A stretch of 32,598 nucleotides of DNA, from positions 1-32,598 of the IMG/VR virus record IMGVR_UViG_3300037237_000074; one strand, 5' to 3'. The translations under genes were made by a program, and so were the position numbers. Numbering within the stretch: the stretch's first letter is position 1; every line of letters begins with the position of its first letter. Below, piece after piece: positions 1,816-28,875 of this stretch. The notes under the pieces are model-generated. The model had not been told where the DNA came from. It worked only from the letters and a program-made list of their open reading frames with translations, and searched no databases. The stretch comes from a virus.

Positions 1816-2023
1816 CGTGAAGCGCTGCCCCGGGCATCCGGGCAGCGTTGACCTGGTGGTCGGCGACCCCGCACACATCGACCCGATCCACCTGACTGCC
1901 GCCGAGTGGCAGGAGTTCGTCACGGCGATCAAGGCCGGGATGTACGACGACGTGACCCGGCACCTAGACGCCGTGGCCGGCGGTGCGCACAAGTCTCGAG
2001 GCCAGCCGCCGGCCGCGGTCTGA
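1805..2023 (+). CDS. Small protein resembling the C-terminal half of DUF397
   Basis: 72 aa, ATG at 1805 (MAPDVKRCPGHPGSVDLVVG). The segment HLTAAEWQEFVTAIKAGMYD resembles the conserved end of actinobacterial DUF397 proteins (F/L-S/T-x-x-E-W-x-x-F-x-x-x-x-K-x-G-x-x-D). The N-terminal DUF397 half is not evident, so the match is partial. DUF397 proteins often accompany helix-turn-helix regulators, which suggests a regulatory partner role, but this is inference. It ends just before a GC-rich hairpin. Confidence 0.55.
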   Translation: MAPDVKRCPGHPGSVDLVVGDPAHIDPIHLTAAEWQEFVTAIKAGMYDDVTRHLDAVAGGAHKSRGQPPAAV

Positions 2024-2037
2024 CAACTGAATCGGGC

Positions 2038-2073
2038 GGGGCCGCCCAGGAGATTAAAGCTCCGGGCGGCCCC
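2038..2073 (+). terminator. GC-rich hairpin ahead of DUF2637-traB genes
   Basis: GGGGCCGCCC (2038-2047) pairs with GGGCGGCCCC (2064-2073), and after one bulged A the stem continues with GGAG/CTCC around a 7-nt loop (ATTAAAG). There is no U-tract. It could be a rho-independent-like actinomycete terminator or an attenuator limiting expression of the downstream translocase operon. The ribosome binding site for the DUF2637 gene lies 24 bp further on. Confidence 0.55.
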
Positions 2074-2109
2074 TCGACCAGTCACCTGACGGAACCAGGA
2101 GACCAGATC

Positions 2110-2757
2110 GTGTCACCAGACATTACAGACGTGTCGCAAGACTCGTCACTAGATCCTGACCGGTGGATCCGGCGCGGAATCTACGCCGGGGTCGCGCTCG
2201 TCGCGGCGTTCGCATTCATCGTCAGCTACAGCCACATCTACGACCTTGGACGGCAGCACGCAGAGTTCGGCATCGCCGACCGGCTGCTGCCGCTGAGCGT
2301 TGACCTGCTCATCGTCGCGGCGACGCTCGTGCTGTGGCTGCAGAGCCGCAGCGGGGCGGAACTGACCGGGCTTGAGCAGAAGCTGCCACGCGGCACGCTG
2401 TGGGGCGGGATTGGCGCCACGGTCGCCGCGAACATCGCCTACGGCCTGCCTCACGGGTGGCTGGCGAGCGTCATCTCCGCATGGCCCGGCGCAGCTTTCG
2501 TCGCCGCTGTCGAACTCGCGATCGTCGCCGTCAAGGCTGGCCGGTTCGGCCTGCAGCCGGGCGCGTCGCCGCAGGCCAGGCCGGTGCCGTCCGATTCCGT
2601 CGGGGCTGCGAAAGCTGCATACGACGCGACAGTGCTGGCCGGCAATCCGCTGTCCCGAAACCAGCTCACCGAGCGGTTCGGCATCACCCGTGCGCAGGCC
2701 GACGAGATCCGCGAGCCCGCCGTCAGCGCATCCCTGAATGGAGGCCCGCCAGCATGA
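2110..2757 (+). CDS. DUF2637 polytopic membrane protein (Spd-like)
   Basis: 215 aa, GTG start at 2110 with AGGAG eight bases upstream. Four hydrophobic segments lie at about residues 24-41, 59-77, 96-112 and 121-140, the DUF2637 arrangement, including LPLSVDLLIVAATLVLWLQ. The C-terminal 60 residues are soluble and contain a helix-turn-helix-like stretch (LSRNQLTERFGITRAQADEI). DUF2637 proteins are found next to the TraB/FtsK-like translocase in AICEs and Streptomyces plasmids, and are thought to help transfer or intramycelial spread. The stop overlaps the translocase start (ATGA), indicating coupled expression. An upstream in-frame extension to 1906 is rejected for lack of a start signal. Confidence 0.8.
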   Translation: MSPDITDVSQDSSLDPDRWIRRGIYAGVALVAAFAFIVSYSHIYDLGRQHAEFGIADRLLPLSVDLLIVAATLVLWLQSRSGAELTGLEQKLPRGTLWGGIGATVAANIAYGLPHGWLASVISAWPGAAFVAAVELAIVAVKAGRFGLQPGASPQARPVPSDSVGAAKAAYDATVLAGNPLSRNQLTERFGITRAQADEIREPAVSASLNGGPPA

Positions 2758-4805
2758 CCACCGACCAGCGTGACCACGACGCCGAAGTGATCGAACTGCA
2801 CCCTCAGACCGAGGCGACGGAAGTTGTCGGCGAGCCCGTCGCCGACGCCGGCCCGCTCGTCCTTGAGGAGCCCGGGACGCGCCGCCAGATCATCCCTGAG
2901 AACTGGCGCCGGGACAGGATCCGGGCGACGGTCGAGCACCATGCAGGACTGCACTGGCACCGTGCGAAGTTCCACGGGGTCCGGGCGCCGATGTACGCGC
3001 TCAAGACGGTGTTCTATGCGTTCGCCGGCGTGATGGTGCTGACCGGGACGCTGATGCGGTGGTGGCACTGGACCGATGGGTGGGTGCTGGAATCGCAGGC
3101 TGTCGCGAAGGGCAACGCGGGGCACGGCGAGGCGATGGCCGCACACAAGCAGGGCATCAAGACGCGGGGCACGCGGGGCCGGATCGTGTTCGTGTGCGGC
3201 GTGCTGGCGCTGCTGCTGCTGATCGCGATGGTGGCGTTCCTGCCGGGCTGGGCTCAGCTGGCGGTCGCGACGGTCGTGTTCGGCGTCCTGGTCTACTACG
3301 GCAAGCCGGACGGCAAGTCGCTGGCTACTGCCGCGGTCGTGCCGCCTAAGTACATGGAGCCGACCCCGGAAGTGATCACGCGGGCTATGGCCAGCCTGCG
3401 GATTCAGGAGATCAACGCGCTGGTCAGGGACGGCGAGCGCCTGGCGTTCGTCACCGACGTTCACCGCGACGGGCCCGGGTGGGGTGTCGAGATCGACCTG
3501 CCTCACGGCGTGACCGCGAAGTCGATCGTCGCCAAGCGTTCCGAACTTGCGTCTGGCCTGCGGCGTCCGCTGTCGGCGACGTGGCCGAAGGGTGTCCCCG
3601 GTGAGCATGAGGGACGCCTCTCACTGTGGATCGGCTTCCAGGATCTCGCCAAGATGAAGGCGCCGGCGTGGCCGCTGCTCAAGGCCGGGCAGGCGGACGT
3701 GTTCGCCGGGCTGCCGTTCGGCACCGACCCGCGTGGCCAGCGGGTTGACGCCGGGCTGTTTGAGGTCAACTGGCTGGTCGGCGCCGCCCCAGGTCAGGGT
3801 AAGACAGCGGCGATCCGCGTGCTGGCCTGCGCCGCCGCGCTGGATCCGCTGGCCGAGATCTGGATTCACGAGCACGCCGGCAAGGGTGACCTTGAGCCGC
3901 TGGCGCAGGTCTGCCACCGCTACGTTTCCGGGCTCGATGACGAGTCGATCGCTTACGCGGCCGAGTCGCTGCGGATGCTGCGGAAGGAACTGGACCGCAG
4001 GTCGGTGCAGTTTAAGAAGATCCCCCGGGTGGACAAGCCAGACGGCAAGGTCACGCGGGACATGGCCGCGAAGCGCAGCCAGCACCTTTACCCGATCGTC
4101 GCGTTCTTTGACGAGGTGCAGAACGTGTTCATGCACCCGGAGTTCGGCGAGAACGCCAAGGCGGACGCGGCCTACATCCTGCGTGTCGGCCGGGCGTACG
4201 GCCTGATTCTGGTGCTGGGCACGCAGCGGCCGGCGGCCGACGCGGTGCCTACCTCGGTCAGCGGCATCGTCACCAACCGTTTCTGCCTCAAGGTGCCCGA
4301 CCAGCCGTCAAACGACCTGGTGCTCGGCACGAGTTCCTACCGGGCCGGATACGACGCGACGGTGTTCCGCGCCAAGACTGACGCCGGGATGGGGTGGCTC
4401 AAGGCCGAGGGTGACCCCCAGATCGTCAAGACGTACTACCTAGACCTGAACGCTACGGAGAAGGTCGCGAAGCGTGCCCGGGGCATCAGGGAGGCGGCCG
4501 GGACGCTGACCGGCTACGCGCTCGGCGAGGCTGGCGAGACGCCCGAGCGGAACTTCCTGCTCGACGTGCTCAACGTCTTCGGCGCCGACGACAAGCTCTG
4601 GTCCGAGACCGTCGCGGCGAGGCTGGCCGAGCGGATCCCGGAGGCGTACGACGCCGTTACCCGGGATTCCGTGGCCAGCCAGCTACGCAAGGCCGGGGTC
4701 GCGGTGAAGGACGTCCGCGAGACCGGCAAGGCGCAGCGGAAGGGCTGCGAGCGGGCCGACGTCGAGAGTGTCGCGGGTGTCGCGGCTACCGGGGGTCGGC
4801 TGTGA
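2754..4805 (+). CDS. TraB/FtsK-SpoIIIE-type DNA translocase
   Basis: 683 aa, ATG at 2754 with GGAGG 8-9 bases upstream. Three transmembrane segments lie at about 80-102, 144-163 and 166-183. The cytoplasmic RecA-like motor has Walker A GAAPGQGKT (343-351), Walker B PIVAFFDE (447-454) and the FtsK-type GTQRP motif (489-493). Residues about 600-662 form a winged-helix-like C-terminus. In Streptomyces plasmids a TraB of this layout forms a hexameric pore and moves double-stranded DNA between mycelia after its winged helix reads short repeats in clt. Host FtsK is less likely because of the short N-terminus and the neighbours. A dense repeat array starts inside the 3' end of this gene and continues downstream, the position of clt in known systems. 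Transfer function is inferred. Confidence 0.85.
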   Translation: MTTDQRDHDAEVIELHPQTEATEVVGEPVADAGPLVLEEPGTRRQIIPENWRRDRIRATVEHHAGLHWHRAKFHGVRAPMYALKTVFYAFAGVMVLTGTLMRWWHWTDGWVLESQAVAKGNAGHGEAMAAHKQGIKTRGTRGRIVFVCGVLALLLLIAMVAFLPGWAQLAVATVVFGVLVYYGKPDGKSLATAAVVPPKYMEPTPEVITRAMASLRIQEINALVRDGERLAFVTDVHRDGPGWGVEIDLPHGVTAKSIVAKRSELASGLRRPLSATWPKGVPGEHEGRLSLWIGFQDLAKMKAPAWPLLKAGQADVFAGLPFGTDPRGQRVDAGLFEVNWLVGAAPGQGKTAAIRVLACAAALDPLAEIWIHEHAGKGDLEPLAQVCHRYVSGLDDESIAYAAESLRMLRKELDRRSVQFKKIPRVDKPDGKVTRDMAAKRSQHLYPIVAFFDEVQNVFMHPEFGENAKADAAYILRVGRAYGLILVLGTQRPAADAVPTSVSGIVTNRFCLKVPDQPSNDLVLGTSSYRAGYDATVFRAKTDAGMGWLKAEGDPQIVKTYYLDLNATEKVAKRARGIREAAGTLTGYALGEAGETPERNFLLDVLNVFGADDKLWSETVAARLAERIPEAYDAVTRDSVASQLRKAGVAVKDVRETGKAQRKGCERADVESVAGVAATGGRL

Positions 4806-23959: not shown

Positions 23960-24256
23960 TTACCCTCCCTCCTGCGGTCTCGGCCTGCCCAGTGCTTCCA
24001 CGCGCAGCAGCCGGATGATGCTCGCGTCCTCCGCCAGCGCTTGCGACGGTGTGCAGTGGAAGCGGTCGCATATGTCCAGCAGCGTCAGCGCCTCGATTAG
24101 CTCGCTAGGGGCTCCGATGCGTTCCCCATCTGCAGCGATGCATCCGGCGAAGTCTCGGTAGAGGCTGAGTTCGCCGGCGATTGATTTGGGACCGTGGACA
24201 TCGCCCCGACCCACGCCTGGAAGATCTGCAGGATGACGGGCAGTTCCTCCTCGCAC
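23960..24256 (-). CDS. Tail assembly chaperone, frameshift (T) portion
   Basis: An open frame in the -1 register relative to the upstream chaperone, overlapping it by 160 bp. It has no convincing start of its own. Translation is expected through the CCCAAAT slip at 24184-24190, joining the upstream protein to SIAGELSLYRDFAGCIAADG and on to LRVEALGRPRPQEGG, 74 residues after the slip. The fusion would be about 184 aa (194 from the GTG start). In siphophages this G-T fusion binds the tape measure while the tail assembles. The gene ends 6 bp before the tape measure ATG. Confidence 0.85.
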   Translation of the reverse strand: MRGGTARHPADLPGVGRGDVHGPKSIAGELSLYRDFAGCIAADGERIGAPSELIEALTLLDICDRFHCTPSQALAEDASIIRLLRVEALGRPRPQEGG

Positions 24257-24543
24257 AGCCCGTCAAAGTCCGGGGTGATCGGCTTCCCTTCGGCGTCTTC
24301 CCGGTTCCACGAGACGACCGACTCGGACACCTTGCGGATCAGCGCCTCGGACGTGGCCAGGTCGCTGTCGGCCGTGGCCTGCATCCGCTGGACAGCGAAG
24401 AAGTCCTTCAGCGGCAGCGAGCGGATCCGCACCTCAAGGTCGTTGAGGTCGGGAAACTTCAGGTCGTACTCGGTCGCTTCCCTGCGCGATCCCATGTCGT
24501 ACCCCTTCGTCATTCGTTCCAGGCGCCGGGCTGCCCGGCTCAC
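24097..24543 (-). CDS. Tail assembly chaperone (G)
   Basis: 148 aa from GTG 24543 (GTGA overlap), or 138 aa from ATG 24513 (MTKGYDMGSRREATEYDLKF), which has GGAA just upstream and is the more likely start. It is soluble and helical (LKDFFAVQRMQATADSDLAT, then EELPVILQIFQAWVGAM). Position between tail tube and tape measure and the -1 frameshift identify it as the lambda gpG-type chaperone. The 0-frame tail after the slip site is Ser/Thr-rich (NQSPANSASTETSPDAS). Confidence 0.88.
   Translation of the reverse strand: MSRAARRLERMTKGYDMGSRREATEYDLKFPDLNDLEVRIRSLPLKDFFAVQRMQATADSDLATSEALIRKVSESVVSWNREDAEGKPITPDFDGLCEEELPVILQIFQAWVGAMSTVPNQSPANSASTETSPDASLQMGNASEPLAS
24184..24190 (-). other. -1 ribosomal slippery site CCCAAAT
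   Basis: Read on the minus strand the codons are GTC CCA AAT, so the heptamer C-CCA-AAT fits X-XXY-YYZ exactly and permits a slip to CCC AAA. The next frame is then open for 74 codons to 23960. Its position in the overlap of the two chaperone frames is the conserved place for this signal in long-tailed phages. Confidence 0.88.
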
Positions 24544-24809
24544 TGGCAGGTGCGGAGCGAGGCAGCGACGAACGCTGCTGCCTCGCGGGTGTTCCCGTGC
24601 AGTACGGGCGCGAGTAGCGCCGTGATCTGGCTGGCTGGCTTGTGCTGCTTGTGCAGGATGCAGACCTGCGCCGCTGCCGCATTGGCAGCGCGCACGCGGG
24701 CACTGGCCGTCGCGTGGACCGCCGCGGCCGGGGACGGTGACGCCGAGCCGCAGCCCGACAGAACCAGAGCAGCGACGGTCGTAGCAGCGGCGGCCAGTGC
24801 CCGCCTCAT
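24540..24809 (-). CDS. Small secreted lipoprotein inside tail operon
   Basis: 89 aa, ATG at 24809 overlapping the previous stop. A clear lipoprotein signal is present: MRRA, then hydrophobic LAAAATTVAALVL and lipobox LSGC with Cys20. The mature part is helical with two cysteines (QVCILHKQHKPASQITALLA; LRTCQ) that could form a disulfide. It should be anchored on the outer face of the cytoplasmic membrane of the host. Phage lipoproteins such as Ltp of TP-J34 block DNA injection by other phages by acting on the tape measure, so superinfection exclusion is a reasonable hypothesis. It is inserted between tail tube and chaperone genes, which is unusual. Confidence 0.85.
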   Translation of the reverse strand: MRRALAAAATTVAALVLSGCGSASPSPAAAVHATASARVRAANAAAAQVCILHKQHKPASQITALLAPVLHGNTREAAAFVAASLRTCQ

Positions 24810-25228
24810 CAGGAGTTGACCCAGGAGTTGACGGTGCCGTCGGCGAGCACGCCGGGCACCTGCCAGGTCAGCTCGCCCGTGTTGGCACGGGTGATCTGGT
24901 AGTCGGTCAGCAGCAGGTTCGCGCCGTAAGTGGGCTTGCTGGCGCTCGTGACCTGCAGCGTCCAGGCCCGCGCTACCGACGTGGACGGCACGGTCGAGAA
25001 CACGGCGTGGCTCATGTTCGCCGCGTTGTTGAAGATGCCGTTGAACGTCACGGAGACGTCAGACAGCAGCAGGATGCGCTCGTTCGCGGACACCCCGACG
25101 CCGGTCACGTCCTGCGATGCCCGGGGGGTCGAGAGCGTCCAGTTCGTGATGTCGTCGGTGATCGTCTGCGCGCCCGCACTGGCGTCCGCGACGGTGATTA
25201 CCTCACCGAGACCGGAAGTTTTGGCCAT
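24809..25228 (-). CDS. Tail tube-like protein, short paralogue
   Basis: 139 aa, ATG at 25228 (MAKTSGLGEVITVADASAGA). It aligns with the N-terminal 140 residues of the 401-aa tail protein: SGLG, D-V-T-G, S-A-N-E-R-I versus S-A-N-Q-R-I, a shared F-N-x-x-A-x-x-S-H and P-S/T-T-x-V. The second domain of the long form is absent. Alternatives to a second tube subunit are a tail-cap, distal tail or initiator role. Confidence 0.75.
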   Translation of the reverse strand: MAKTSGLGEVITVADASAGAQTITDDITNWTLSTPRASQDVTGVGVSANERILLLSDVSVTFNGIFNNAANMSHAVFSTVPSTSVARAWTLQVTSASKPTYGANLLLTDYQITRANTGELTWQVPGVLADGTVNSWVNS

Positions 25229-25234
25229 TGGTGA

Positions 25235-25696
25235 TCATCCTCTCTTTATGGCTGTCGCCAGCCGGTCGTTGTGCTCGCTGAACTCGTCCACCCAGCTGCC
25301 GGCGTGGGCGTGGACCCGCGGGGGGATGCCGCGGGGGTTGCCGCGCCAGTCGCCTTCGCTGACGAGGTAGCGGAACGGCCTGCCGGTCGGCAGCCGGTGC
25401 TCGCCCGCCTGGTAGCAGCGCTGGCCGGGCGCGAACACGAACTTGACCAGCGTCGGGCTGACGCGCTGCTCGGTCCCCTTGCGGGTCGCGTCGTGCGTGA
25501 TGAAGTCGTAGCGCCGCCGGCCGAGGTCGTCGGACAGATCGACGGTCGTGACCCAGCCGCAGCGGTAGGCCTCGCAGCGGATCTCGTCGCACGTCGCGGG
25601 CCGGAAGTGTGTCGTGAGCGGCCGGGACATGCTGAACGTCTTGTAGGCGGCCGGGCCCATCTTCGGCATGATGCTGCGGCCCGGGATGACGCCCAC
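25235..25696 (-). CDS. Conserved-type hypothetical protein between tail tube genes
   Basis: 153 aa, GTG at 25696 sharing one base with the upstream stop (TAGTG). Basic, with MGPAAYKTFSMSRPLTTHFR, then RCEAYRCGW and HDATRKGTEQRVSPTLVKFV, ending SEHNDRLATAIKRG. Cys and Arg/His residues suggest a compact fold but no motif is recognised. Similar-looking proteins occur in actinophage tail regions. Function unknown; a tail assembly role follows only from position. Confidence 0.65.
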   Translation of the reverse strand: MGVIPGRSIMPKMGPAAYKTFSMSRPLTTHFRPATCDEIRCEAYRCGWVTTVDLSDDLGRRRYDFITHDATRKGTEQRVSPTLVKFVFAPGQRCYQAGEHRLPTGRPFRYLVSEGDWRGNPRGIPPRVHAHAGSWVDEFSEHNDRLATAIKRG

Positions 25697-26901
25697 TAGA
25701 ACACCTGCCCGGCGACTGTGTTCTTCGTCAGCTGGACGCCGAACGACAGTGCGGTGAACCCGGCCGTGGTGACCACGTTCACGGCGACATAGCGGCGGAT
25801 GGTGGCCGTGTTGCCGATCGCGATGCGCTGCGCCCCGGTGGCCGTGGTCTGCGTGAACGCCAGCCCGGACACCGCCGAGAACGAGGCGTTGTCGGCGCTG
25901 TCGTAGATGCTGATGGTGGCGTCGGTGCCGGTGAACGCGGTCACCTGCAGGTATGCCTGGCCGCCGAACGACAGCGACGCGCCCGTGTCATAGCTGAGCG
26001 GCAGGACGAACACCTGCGCGTCGTCTGCATAGTGGACTTCGCTGGCCCCGCCGGTCGATGCGACCTTGACGCTGATCAGCCCGAACGCGGTCGTCGCCGG
26101 GGCAGTGACGGTGCCCGTGACCAGCGTCCATGCGGACGTCGAGTCAGCCGCCCCGGTGCCGAACGTGGTCGAGACCGACACCCCGGCCGAGGTCAGCCAG
26201 TGGACACCGACCGAGCAGGTGCGGGCCGACACGGCGGAGCGCACCCATGCCTGCACCTGGACCTGCTGCCCGGGGACGACCGCGAACGCCTGCGTGGCGT
26301 AACTCGCTGCGGCGCCGGACTCGGCCACCATGTCGCCGCTGGCCGTGGACGACATGGACAGCGAGTCGGCGCCGCCGTGATGCTGCGCCGACGAGTCGGT
26401 CGCCGTGTTGTTCGTGAGGCCAATCCAGTTGCCGATGCCGCCCTCAAACGTGGAGTTCGCGCCGGTCAGCGCGTTCGCCGCCGCATAGATCCCCGGGGTG
26501 AGCTGCTGGCCCCATTCCATGCCGTAGGCGTTGGCCTGCACTTCGGTCTTGAGGGTCAGGTTCCCGGTGTTGTCGCGGGTCGGGGCATAGTCGATCTGCT
26601 TCCCGTTGATGCTGGCGGCCGGGTTCCCGGTGGCGGTGCCGCGGAAGTATGTCGCGATGACGTCCGTGGTCGGCAGCGTGTTCAGCGCCAGGTGCGACGC
26701 GCCTGCGGCGAAGTTGAAGAACGACGTGAACTGCCAGTCGGCGTCACGCAGCCCGCCGATCCGCTGGTTGGCGCTGTACTTGATCCCGGTCACGTCGATC
26801 GGCGCGAGCGGGCCGGACATCTGGTCAACGCTGGACACGTCGCCGGACAGGTCGAAACCGCCGATGTAAAAGTTATCGCCCAACCCGGACTGTTTGGTCA
26901 T
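25696..26901 (-). CDS. Major tail tube protein with inserted carbohydrate-binding-like domain
   Basis: 401 aa, ATG at 26901 (TGATG junction). Residues 1 to about 140 are the tail-tube module (MTKQSGLGDNFYIGGFDLSG; DVTGIKYSANQRIG). From about 155 to 285 is a jelly-roll-like insert: NSTFEGGIGNW, SMSSTASGDM, VPGQQVQVQAWVRS, ending VHYADDAQVF, the CBM_4_9 pattern. The last about 115 residues form another beta domain. Tail-tube proteins bearing surface-exposed sugar-binding domains are known in siphophages. It should polymerise into the tube and decorate its surface. Confidence 0.82.
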   Translation of the reverse strand: MTKQSGLGDNFYIGGFDLSGDVSSVDQMSGPLAPIDVTGIKYSANQRIGGLRDADWQFTSFFNFAAGASHLALNTLPTTDVIATYFRGTATGNPAASINGKQIDYAPTRDNTGNLTLKTEVQANAYGMEWGQQLTPGIYAAANALTGANSTFEGGIGNWIGLTNNTATDSSAQHHGGADSLSMSSTASGDMVAESGAAASYATQAFAVVPGQQVQVQAWVRSAVSARTCSVGVHWLTSAGVSVSTTFGTGAADSTSAWTLVTGTVTAPATTAFGLISVKVASTGGASEVHYADDAQVFVLPLSYDTGASLSFGGQAYLQVTAFTGTDATISIYDSADNASFSAVSGLAFTQTTATGAQRIAIGNTATIRRYVAVNVVTTAGFTALSFGVQLTKNTVAGQVF

Positions 26902-27368
26902 CAGGCCACCTGGCTCCACATGTCGTTAAAGATCACCGGGATGGTGAGGGTCATTACGCGGAACATTGAGCCGCTGATCGTCACGTAGCCGGCCTGCGCC
27001 GACAGCTTCGGCCCGAACGCGCCGAGCAGGTCCACGTTCCGCACCGTGGCCCCGAAGTTGAAGTCGCCGCTGTAGGCGCCCATCAGGGTCGTCGCGGCGG
27101 TGAGGACGTCCGGGTCGATGCCGTCTTCCGGCTTCTGCAGCATCGACGTATAGATGCGGCCCATCAGGACCACCTCGCCGGACGTCGCCGACAGCCCGGA
27201 CGCCCCGCCGAGCGGCACGATTGAGTCGGCCCACACGGCGTAAGTCATCCCGCTGCCCGGCGACGACTTCGGCTCGTGCCCGTTCACCGAATCGAACACA
27301 CCCAGCGCCAGCCCGTGACTGATCGTGCTGTCCATCAGCCCGAGGATTGCCGCCTGGTCGAGCGCCAT
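26901..27368 (-). CDS. Tail terminator-like protein
   Basis: 155 aa, ATG at 27368 (MALDQAAILGLMDSTISHGL). It contains YAVWADSIVPLGGAS, RIYTSMLQKPEDGID and a C-terminal beta part (TVRNVDLLGAFGPKLSAQAG; FRVMTLTIPVIFNDMW). Size, the alternating order of an N-terminal helix then sheet, and position just before the tail tube gene fit the gpU-type tail terminator that caps the tube. Family match is by position and general form. Confidence 0.65.
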   Translation of the reverse strand: MALDQAAILGLMDSTISHGLALGVFDSVNGHEPKSSPGSGMTYAVWADSIVPLGGASGLSATSGEVVLMGRIYTSMLQKPEDGIDPDVLTAATTLMGAYSGDFNFGATVRNVDLLGAFGPKLSAQAGYVTISGSMFRVMTLTIPVIFNDMWSQVA

Positions 27369-27811
27369 CAGGCGTTCATCTCCCCGACGTACGGCCTGAG
27401 CGTGGCAGTGGCGCGGGCCGCAGCCACCCCGTTGAGCGCCTGCCCGGCCCTGCGCATCCCGTGGTAGCCCTTGAAGCGGGTGCTCGTGTTCCGGCTGCCC
27501 GTTCCCTCAAGCCACGGCCCGTAGGTCGCCAGGTCGTTCGTGACGATCGTCTCGGCCGCGCTGTCCGTGGTGATCAGCAGCGTGTAGCTCTTGCTGCCGG
27601 TCTGCGTCGTGAACGCCGCCGAGTGGTCCGTCGTCCTCATCCGGCTGACGAACTTCCCGTGGTTGGCCTTGATCGACGCGGTGAACGCAGCGGCGGCCAG
27701 TTTCTCGCCTTCGCTGGCCAGGTCGGCGCGGATCGCCTTGATGCCACGGGCCAGCGCGGCGTCCGCACGGCCGTCGAACATCGGCCCGCTGAACTTCACG
27801 TCGTCAGCCAT
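27368..27811 (-). CDS. HK97 gp10-like neck protein
   Basis: 147 aa, ATG at 27811 (TGATG with the upstream gene); the 18-residue longer frame is rejected. An N-terminal helix (RADAALARGIKAIRADLASE) is followed by beta segments and the characteristic YGPWLEGTGSRNTSTRFKGY and GMRRAGQALN. This W-L-E-x-G-x-x-R then R-F-x-G-Y pattern is seen in HK97 gp10-type proteins that join head to tail. Context between head connector and tail terminator agrees. Confidence 0.78.
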   Translation of the reverse strand: MADDVKFSGPMFDGRADAALARGIKAIRADLASEGEKLAAAAFTASIKANHGKFVSRMRTTDHSAAFTTQTGSKSYTLLITTDSAAETIVTNDLATYGPWLEGTGSRNTSTRFKGYHGMRRAGQALNGVAAARATATLRPYVGEMNA

Positions 27812-28875
27812 CAGATCACCCGGCTTCGTGCCTTGCGGCAGTAGCCGGTCTCCGCTTCGTCCCACAGGTCGGCGAGCGCCGTGCCCAGCCCGCGTTCGCC
27901 TTCCTCGCCCTGCGGATCGCTGTAACCGCCCGTTTCCTGCAGGACCCGCTGCCCGGCTTCGGCGATGTTCAGGTCACGGATCAGCAGCGGCGGCCGGTGA
28001 ACCGTGAGCGGTGCGCTGACCAGGTGCGTCGCCGCCGTGGTGCCCAGAGCGCCGCGGATCACCGTCAGCGAGCGGTAGGCGTTGATCGTCGCCCCGCCGC
28101 TGTGATCGGCCAGGACCGTGCCATCCCACGCCCGCTTCACCGTGACCACGCTGCCGGTCACGTCGGACACGAGCATCCGCTCGCTGTCGATCAGCAGCGT
28201 CTCGCCTGCGCTGGCCGAGCCGGACCCCGTGACCGTGATCGCGTTATCTGCCGCCGACTCGGTGGTGCCGCCGCTGACGATCGTGAGGCCCGTGCTGGCC
28301 GTCGCGTGATCGGACACGAGCATCCGCTCGCTGTCGATGACCAGGATGTGCCCCACCGTGGCCAGCGCCGAGTTCGACACCACGACCGTCGTGCCCGTCG
28401 TGTCGGTCAGCGCGGTGGCGAGCGTCCCGGCCGGGTCCGTGTCGATGCTGAACCCGTACGTGCCCATGACCGCGACGTCCCGCTGCGGGGTGTCGCCCTG
28501 CCCGAACGACCCCGACTTGGACCTGTCCAGTTCCAGGAACGTGAACGGCGGGCCGTAGTTCCACGGGCCCCAGAGGATGTTCGCGGCCAGGATGACGTTC
28601 CCGCCGCTGGTCACCACGGGCACGGTCACCGTGACGTCGGCGAGTTCGTTAGCGTCGAACCAGATGCGCCACGGGTAGGCCCGCTGGAAGTTGGGCCAGT
28701 CGTAGTAGCGGGTGTCTACCTTCGGGTAGAACACGCGGTGCATGTGATTGTCAATGTTCCGCGCCGCCGACTGCAGCGCCCGGTCAATCCGCTGGTCCTC
28801 ACGGGCCGTGAACTTGAAGTCGGGCGACCGCTTCACGTCCTCACGGGTCGCATAAACCGGCGTCGTTACAGCCAT
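27811..28875 (-). CDS. Head-tail connector (adaptor) protein
   Basis: 354 aa, ATG at 28875 with GAGGTGG upstream, overlapping the previous gene by 10 bp. It opens MAVTTPVYATREDVKRSPDF followed by helical ALQSAARNIDNHMHRVFYP, the adaptor pattern. The middle has two similar beta units, each with I-L/L-I-DSERMLVSD (at about 190 and 250). The C-terminus ends DLWDEAETGYCRKARSRVI. It likely docks under the portal. The repeated beta units are an elaboration not usual in small adaptors. Confidence 0.75.
   Translation of the reverse strand: MAVTTPVYATREDVKRSPDFKFTAREDQRIDRALQSAARNIDNHMHRVFYPKVDTRYYDWPNFQRAYPWRIWFDANELADVTVTVPVVTSGGNVILAANILWGPWNYGPPFTFLELDRSKSGSFGQGDTPQRDVAVMGTYGFSIDTDPAGTLATALTDTTGTTVVVSNSALATVGHILVIDSERMLVSDHATASTGLTIVSGGTTESAADNAITVTGSGSASAGETLLIDSERMLVSDVTGSVVTVKRAWDGTVLADHSGGATINAYRSLTVIRGALGTTAATHLVSAPLTVHRPPLLIRDLNIAEAGQRVLQETGGYSDPQGEEGERGLGTALADLWDEAETGYCRKARSRVI

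Follow-up and report, generated by a model that had tools for sequence, protein, structure and literature searches.

The window, by which we mean the whole stretch of viral DNA that was analysed (a viral record, 32,598 bases long, with a GC content of 0.68), comes from a soil actinobacterial virus, a siphophage whose tail operon lies on the minus strand (Table 1). A small lipoprotein gene is lodged in this tail cassette, as the earlier note had proposed, with a tube-like gene upstream of it and the chaperone pair, followed by the tape measure gene, downstream. Among the genome loci carrying relatives of the tube gene, 32 of 34 are titled actinomycetes, and the hosts of the tube relatives are largely monoderm in envelope type. 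Tube relatives were also seen in two MAG contigs labelled Dehalococcoidia and Chloroflexi (L105 and L116), which may be misbinned actinophage or may reflect a wider host range. No integrase was found among the window ORFs scanned.

Table 1. Features of the tail cassette around the lipoprotein gene, in order of transcription; positions refer to the window.
Feature	Position	Strand	Basis
First tube-like gene, with carbohydrate-binding module	25696-26919	-	CBM_4_9, E 1.9e-6
Tail-tube-like protein, 139 aa, adjoining the lipoprotein gene upstream	24809-25228	-	PHROG 10528 major tail protein, E 1e-5
Lipoprotein gene, ATG start, 89 aa	24540-24809	-	ORF; start overlaps tube stop (TGATG)
Predicted signal peptide, residues 1-19, lipobox L-S-G then Cys20	24753-24809	-	Sequence; lipobox scan
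Lipobox Cys20	24750-24752	-	ORF sequence
Mature domain, 70 aa, Cys20 (predicted lipid site), Cys50 and Cys88, three predicted helices	24543-24752	-	AlphaFold2
Hairpin at lipoprotein stop, before chaperone start, -18.7 kcal/mol	24518-24547	-	Predicted
Tail assembly chaperone, first frame	24097-24495	-	Alignment with 15 relatives
Second chaperone frame, via -1 slip at CCCAAAT (24184-24190)	23960-24190	-	Slippery heptamer
Tape measure protein, 1336 aa	19943-23953	-	PHROG tape measure families, best E 2.9e-39

The cassette holds two tube-like genes, the first of which also gives a tail-tube match below threshold (E 0.033). The chaperone first frame does not match any family convincingly in Pfam and PHROG scans, and is identified as such because of its alignment with relatives together with the -1 slippery heptamer. 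Across the 153 related loci described below, a slippery heptamer is found in 126 (CCCTTTG in 74, GGGAAAA in 17, CCCAAAT and CCCAAAA in 12 each, CCCTTTA in 7, others in 4; none found in 27), and the extension is at least 60 aa long in 125 of these 126, the one in the window being 74 aa. The earlier note had placed the chaperone start at GTG 24543; the alignment with relatives prefers ATG 24495, which is most likely the correct start and leaves a 44-bp spacer behind the lipoprotein gene. Residues 1151-1258, towards the C-terminus of the tape measure protein, match PHROG transglycosylase families (E 1.2e-4 and 0.0012), and the protein may thus contain a wall-cutting domain. Elsewhere in the window, at 1906-4805 on the plus strand, a gene for a DUF2637 protein (E 3.7e-9) overlaps one for an FtsK/SpoIIIE-like protein (E 5.2e-19), a pair that recalls actinobacterial conjugative elements.

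The lipoprotein gene and its product

The reading frame at 24540-24809 is strongly indicated to be a real gene by its codon-position GC. In 120-bp windows, the coding frame switches from tube to lipoprotein to chaperone at both gene borders, the GC-rich third position passing from above 0.9 in the tube frame through 0.82-0.88 in the second half of the lipoprotein frame to above 0.9 in the chaperone frame, while over the signal peptide region, the first 80 bp or so, the three frames are not told apart. Over the whole gene, third-position GC is 0.80, as against 0.9 or more in the flanks, a lower value that might be expected of a recently acquired gene.

No Shine-Dalgarno sequence was seen by eye before the lipoprotein ATG. 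Since this ATG overlaps the tube stop in the absence of such a site, termination-reinitiation is suggested, and the same overlap makes it probable that the protein is produced together with the tail tube, late and without a promoter of its own. A search that covered promoters of the sigma-70 type found no such site at 24000-27400. The earlier note had considered expression in lysogens from a local promoter, and the overlap and this search both speak against it. In the available passages of the literature, exclusion factors frequently have a promoter of their own and are expressed in the lysogen; that none is seen here counts against an exclusion role.

The N-terminus of the 89-aa product reads MRRALAAAATTVAALVLSGC and continues with GSAS. 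Our own rule-based scan for lipoprotein (SPII) signals found a basic n-region, a hydrophobic h-region and a lipobox with its cysteine. The single-sequence AlphaFold2 model has a mean pLDDT of 81.1 and a pTM of 0.60, and the mature protein is basic, with six lysines and arginines against one acidic residue (pI about 10.1). In other words, the signal peptide ending in LSGC and the short, helical, two-cysteine mature domain are as the earlier note described them. Weak matches (E 0.035-0.97, none above cut-off) were obtained to seven NCBIfam models whose names refer to lipoproteins, to Rz1-like products or to products associated with lipoproteins; all seven matches start within residues 1-6 and support the type of signal only. 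The product is probably anchored at the outer surface of the host cell membrane.

The slot between tube and chaperone

Tube homologues were gathered from viral contigs, genome contigs and one cultured phage (Dagobah, whose host is Streptomyces coelicolor M600), with the window tube gene among the queries. The first search of viral contigs gave 126 relatives; loci were taken from the best 80 of these 126, the best 80 of at least 593 and the best 80 of 258 relatives, so that the sample leans to tubes resembling the queries. Deduplication at 95% identity around the tube stop reduced 290 loci to 160, and 7 without a chaperone match were dropped, leaving 153, the window included. The chaperone and the N-terminus of the tape measure protein, used as queries against viral contigs, gave no confirmed relative.

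From tube stop to chaperone start, the distance is at most 30 bp in 75 loci, 31-120 bp in 49 and more than 120 bp in 29; inserts above 120 bp are thus absent from 124 of the 153. Sorted by eye, the 29 inserts comprise three lipoproteins (the window, L006 and L127), four other exported or membrane proteins (L015, L045, L058, L250), seven HK97-gp10-like proteins (L004, L011, L027, L032, L039, L040, L082), six HNH-like proteins (L043, L060, L075, L107, L256, L307) and nine small or other inserts or slots without a clear ORF (L002, L025, L033, L071, L080, L152, L253, L258, L324). The HK97-gp10 name is our assumption for seven inserts that by eye resemble the window ORF at 27368-27865; the one of them that was scanned (L004) had no PHROG match. 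The one HNH-like insert that was scanned (L060) matches the PHROG HNH family at E 4e-7. HNH-like genes occur at the junction in six lineages and are of at least two types by eye, as if homing elements targeted this point. Taken together, the tube-chaperone junction is strongly indicated to be an insertion-tolerant slot; this agrees with the suggestion in the earlier note that the gene could be cargo, and its further remark that a lipoprotein is unexpected at this place is borne out by the count of 3 in 153 loci.

Predicted hairpins after the tube gene average -17.6 kcal/mol over the 153 slots, against -17.7 kcal/mol in the control, and an attenuator role for them was dropped as an idea, given this lack of general enrichment. 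Strong hairpins are found in a subset of loci only: the 23 loci with gaps of 60-129 bp have a mean of -22.7 kcal/mol, 15 of the 23 being at -20 or below. A strong GC-rich hairpin lies directly 3' of the tube stop in L006 (5001-5045), L127 (4409-4452) and L058 (6433-6476), and likewise in L003, L005, L008, L017 and L012, often with CCGG in the loop, repeated behind the stem.

A strict lipobox scan of the 160 deduplicated loci (1.29 Mb, of which the slots make up 16.4 kb) gave five matches on the sense strand, three of them inside tube-chaperone slots. The two others were judged not to be lipoproteins, one being a multi-TM protein (L059) and the other having an out-of-register start (L164). The 18 matches on the antisense strand show how many false positives the filter yields in DNA this rich in GC. 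In the 1.29 Mb there are thus just three lipoproteins on the sense strand that convince, all in the slot, and within these tail cassettes lipoproteins occur there and so far nowhere else; the scan does not fairly test whether the slot is favoured over other accessory sites, since the remainder consists mostly of core virion genes.

On the tube tree, the three lipoproteins need at least three state changes, and seven once the four further exported or membrane proteins are counted in (classes by eye). The nearest rows to the window are L127, L124 (without an insert) and L006. Since the three lipoprotein loci thus share one neighbourhood, a single old gain, with replacement and losses, is possible as well.

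Relatives of the protein

The slot proteins of L006, L127 and L058 form one family (alignment A5), the L058 member being non-lipid, and a lipoprotein of this family is also encoded on an actinomycete chromosome, where no tube or chaperone gene was detected in the surrounding 19.9 kb. The chromosomal lipoprotein of L331 had no match in phages. Membership of the window protein in this family was rejected, its hhalign comparison with A5 covering 6 columns at P 0.25; the C-x-G-(L/I) motif at the second cysteine of the family is absent from it by eye. The AlphaFold model of the L127 lipoprotein is poor (pLDDT 56.8).

No homologue of the window lipoprotein was found in phages and plasmids by tblastn, nor in viral contigs or genome contigs. 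The mature domain found none in 394 class-level genomes, an empty result that, having no positive control, shows little, and the whole protein gave chance-level matches only in four genomes (best E 0.003, with an internal stop). Solved structures and PADLOC gave no match, the best VIA-align structure comparison (Z 3.5) was to unrelated proteins, and no Foldseek match reached E 0.001.

Could the protein belong to DUF732 (PF05305), a family of secreted proteins and lipoproteins from actinobacteria and actinophages? Among the 50 viral structure matches listed, 7 are named DUF732 or DUF732-like, the best of those listed being an Aggie protein (probability 0.96, rmsd 1.1 over 45 columns). Like the members, the window protein has a helical domain of about 70 aa, as predicted by the model, and its cysteines are spaced by 38 residues as compared with about 40 in the members (by eye), in which both cysteines are invariant in 22 of 22 aligned; it differs in ending in CQ, whereas members usually end in YCP. 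Our own DUF732 HMM gave the window protein 9.2 bits, a score reached by 7 of 2000 shuffles and by 11 of 2000 with the cysteines fixed, in a local alignment that places the first cysteine in register, continues through the following stretch and ends before the second. The hhalign score is weak, being reached by 13 of 150 shuffles and 8 of 150 cysteine-fixed ones, and a Pfam scan at E up to 1 returned no PF05305 row, the gathering score of 22.4 bits not being reached. A host-type DUF732 peptide had no match in phages. Tentatively, then, the window protein resembles DUF732 in its model and cysteine spacing, and we do not file it as a member. DUF732 genes are present in actinophages with a function that is not known, and Troll4 76 is toxic on expression, as given in the consulted parts of papers cited here jointly (PMC7474061, PMC8612146, PMC9934374, PMC8092301 and PMC11373665, among others).

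Discussion

What might such a protein do for the phage? Superinfection exclusion in general is our best functional guess, one that rests on analogy because no homologue was found in phages, plasmids, viral contigs, genome contigs or the 394 genomes. Position alone does not imply exclusion, since HNH-like and gp10-like genes are found in the slot too. That phage lipoproteins or membrane proteins act in exclusion is described in the available portions of several papers (PMC3952083, PMC9586334, PMC10883804, PMC11480721, PMC4524720, PMC10884400 and others). In the searched literature, which leaves most subscription journals outside, no description of lipoproteins at the tube-chaperone junction of actinophages was found.

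The explanation that we tentatively put forward is that of a moron: a host-style surface lipoprotein, captured by the phage and expressed late, which would alter the envelope of the infected cell against further phages. It would be translated together with the tube late in infection, exported by its signal peptide and lipidated on Cys20, and would come to be anchored, facing outwards, in the cytoplasmic membrane of a monoderm host. There, its small, basic, helical domain would stand in the cell-wall zone, perhaps closed by a Cys50-Cys88 disulphide. Such a change in the envelope, on the model of small phage lipoproteins like T5 Llp, could block adsorption or DNA delivery by further phages; alternatively, progeny would not be wasted on cells and debris already taken. 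Either way, the protein would be a captured host-style one and not part of the virion. Like T5 Llp and Cor, it is a small lipoprotein encoded by a phage next to a tail gene, and it may have a disulphide; Llp, in the accessible text, adjoins the receptor-binding gene and contains a disulphide bond (PMC9586334). The difference is that Llp jams an outer-membrane transporter, whereas the hosts here are expected to be monoderm, and the PHROG Cor match is weak (E 0.18) and covers residues 11-38, the signal region and what follows. HK97 gp15 and JBD26 Tab are comparable as small cargo genes of long-tailed phages that bear on tape measure dependent steps. They differ in that gp15 is a predicted inner membrane protein and in that tab has its own promoter and lies on the other strand between terminase genes, and the portions at hand of the papers that describe them (PMC10883804, PMC10884400) call neither of them a lipoprotein.

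A serious possibility, if one that falls well short of even, is that the gene is host-style cargo tolerated in the slot and has no part in excluding phages: picked up by recombination that keeps the tail operon intact, it would be neutral or would serve the host envelope in lysogenic or late conversion. This would agree with the 26 of 29 inserts that are not lipoproteins (the six HNH-like and seven gp10-like genes among them), with the chromosomal member of the L006 family lying away from tail genes, with lipoproteins in just 3 of 153 loci and with the lack of a homologue, hence of any sign of long retention. However, two unrelated small lipoprotein families together with other exported proteins in one slot suggest some use, as does an intact frame with high third-position GC, and a gene that overlaps the tube gene so tightly is likely to be expressed. 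A lysogen exclusion factor of the Ltp or HK97 gp15 kind, binding the incoming tape measure protein as the earlier note had envisaged, is improbable. The Ltp-type proteins (TP-J34 Ltp, C. acnes phage gp41 and Gordonia GTE6 orf12) are phage lipoproteins too, expected to face outwards from the membrane of Gram-positive hosts; the window gene adjoins the chaperone and tape measure genes, and, according to the consulted part of PMC10883804, phages escape Ltp and gp15 exclusion when their tape measure or tail tube genes change. On the other hand, the Pfam scan of the window protein, at E up to 1, returned no row for the Ltp repeats (PF07553, the family accession as named in the available part of PMC4524720). 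What is more, the mature domain is, by composition, as basic as noted above, whereas Ltp is described, in the passages seen of PMC11480721, as acting through a negatively charged surface. The window gene also lies in the tail operon, with its start overlapping the tube stop and no promoter seen, whereas TP-J34 ltp lies in the lysogeny module (PMC3952083, in part); GTE6, which encodes the Ltp-type lipoprotein orf12, is apparently a lytic phage (PMC4524720, in part).

Could the protein instead be a component of the virion or of tail assembly, for example a tail-anchored factor for host contact? The location between tube and chaperone and the translational overlap would suit such a role, but 124 of the 153 loci do without any insert, of the remaining 29 loci 26 contain something other than a lipoprotein, and an export signal is unexpected for a tail assembled in the cytoplasm, all of which makes this decidedly improbable. 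A part in lysis, as a spanin-like or otherwise envelope-weakening lipoprotein, is very unlikely: the weak matches to a PHROG Rz-like spanin (E 0.038) and an NCBIfam Rz1-like model (E 0.046) span residues 1-30 and 6-46, that is, mostly signal peptide, the hosts of the relatives are largely monoderm and the gene does not lie in a lysis cassette. Finally, that there is no gene at all, only a chance frame in GC-rich DNA, is barely credible. The lack of a homologue, the undistinguished first 80 bp or so and the 18 antisense lipobox matches in 1.29 Mb would fit a chance frame, but the frame switch over the rest of the gene, its close fit between tube stop and chaperone, and a lipobox in the only place where relatives too have lipoproteins all argue against it.

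Returning to the late-expressed lipoprotein moron, one may go a step further and ask whether the junction is a dedicated exchange slot, at which unrelated two-cysteine surface lipoproteins from host families were gained repeatedly as a late, tube-linked class of exclusion factors, protecting the burst rather than the lysogen; we consider this broader proposal rather unlikely. If the window protein is an exclusion factor, it would be the product of a lipoprotein exclusion gene wired to the translation of the tail tube and acting late. If true, this would give a testable role to the helical two-cysteine lipoproteins of actinobacteria and their phages, such as the DUF732-like proteins and the L006 family. 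The slot is also of practical use in itself, since candidate cargo genes could be collected quickly by reading the tube-chaperone junctions of more actinophages.
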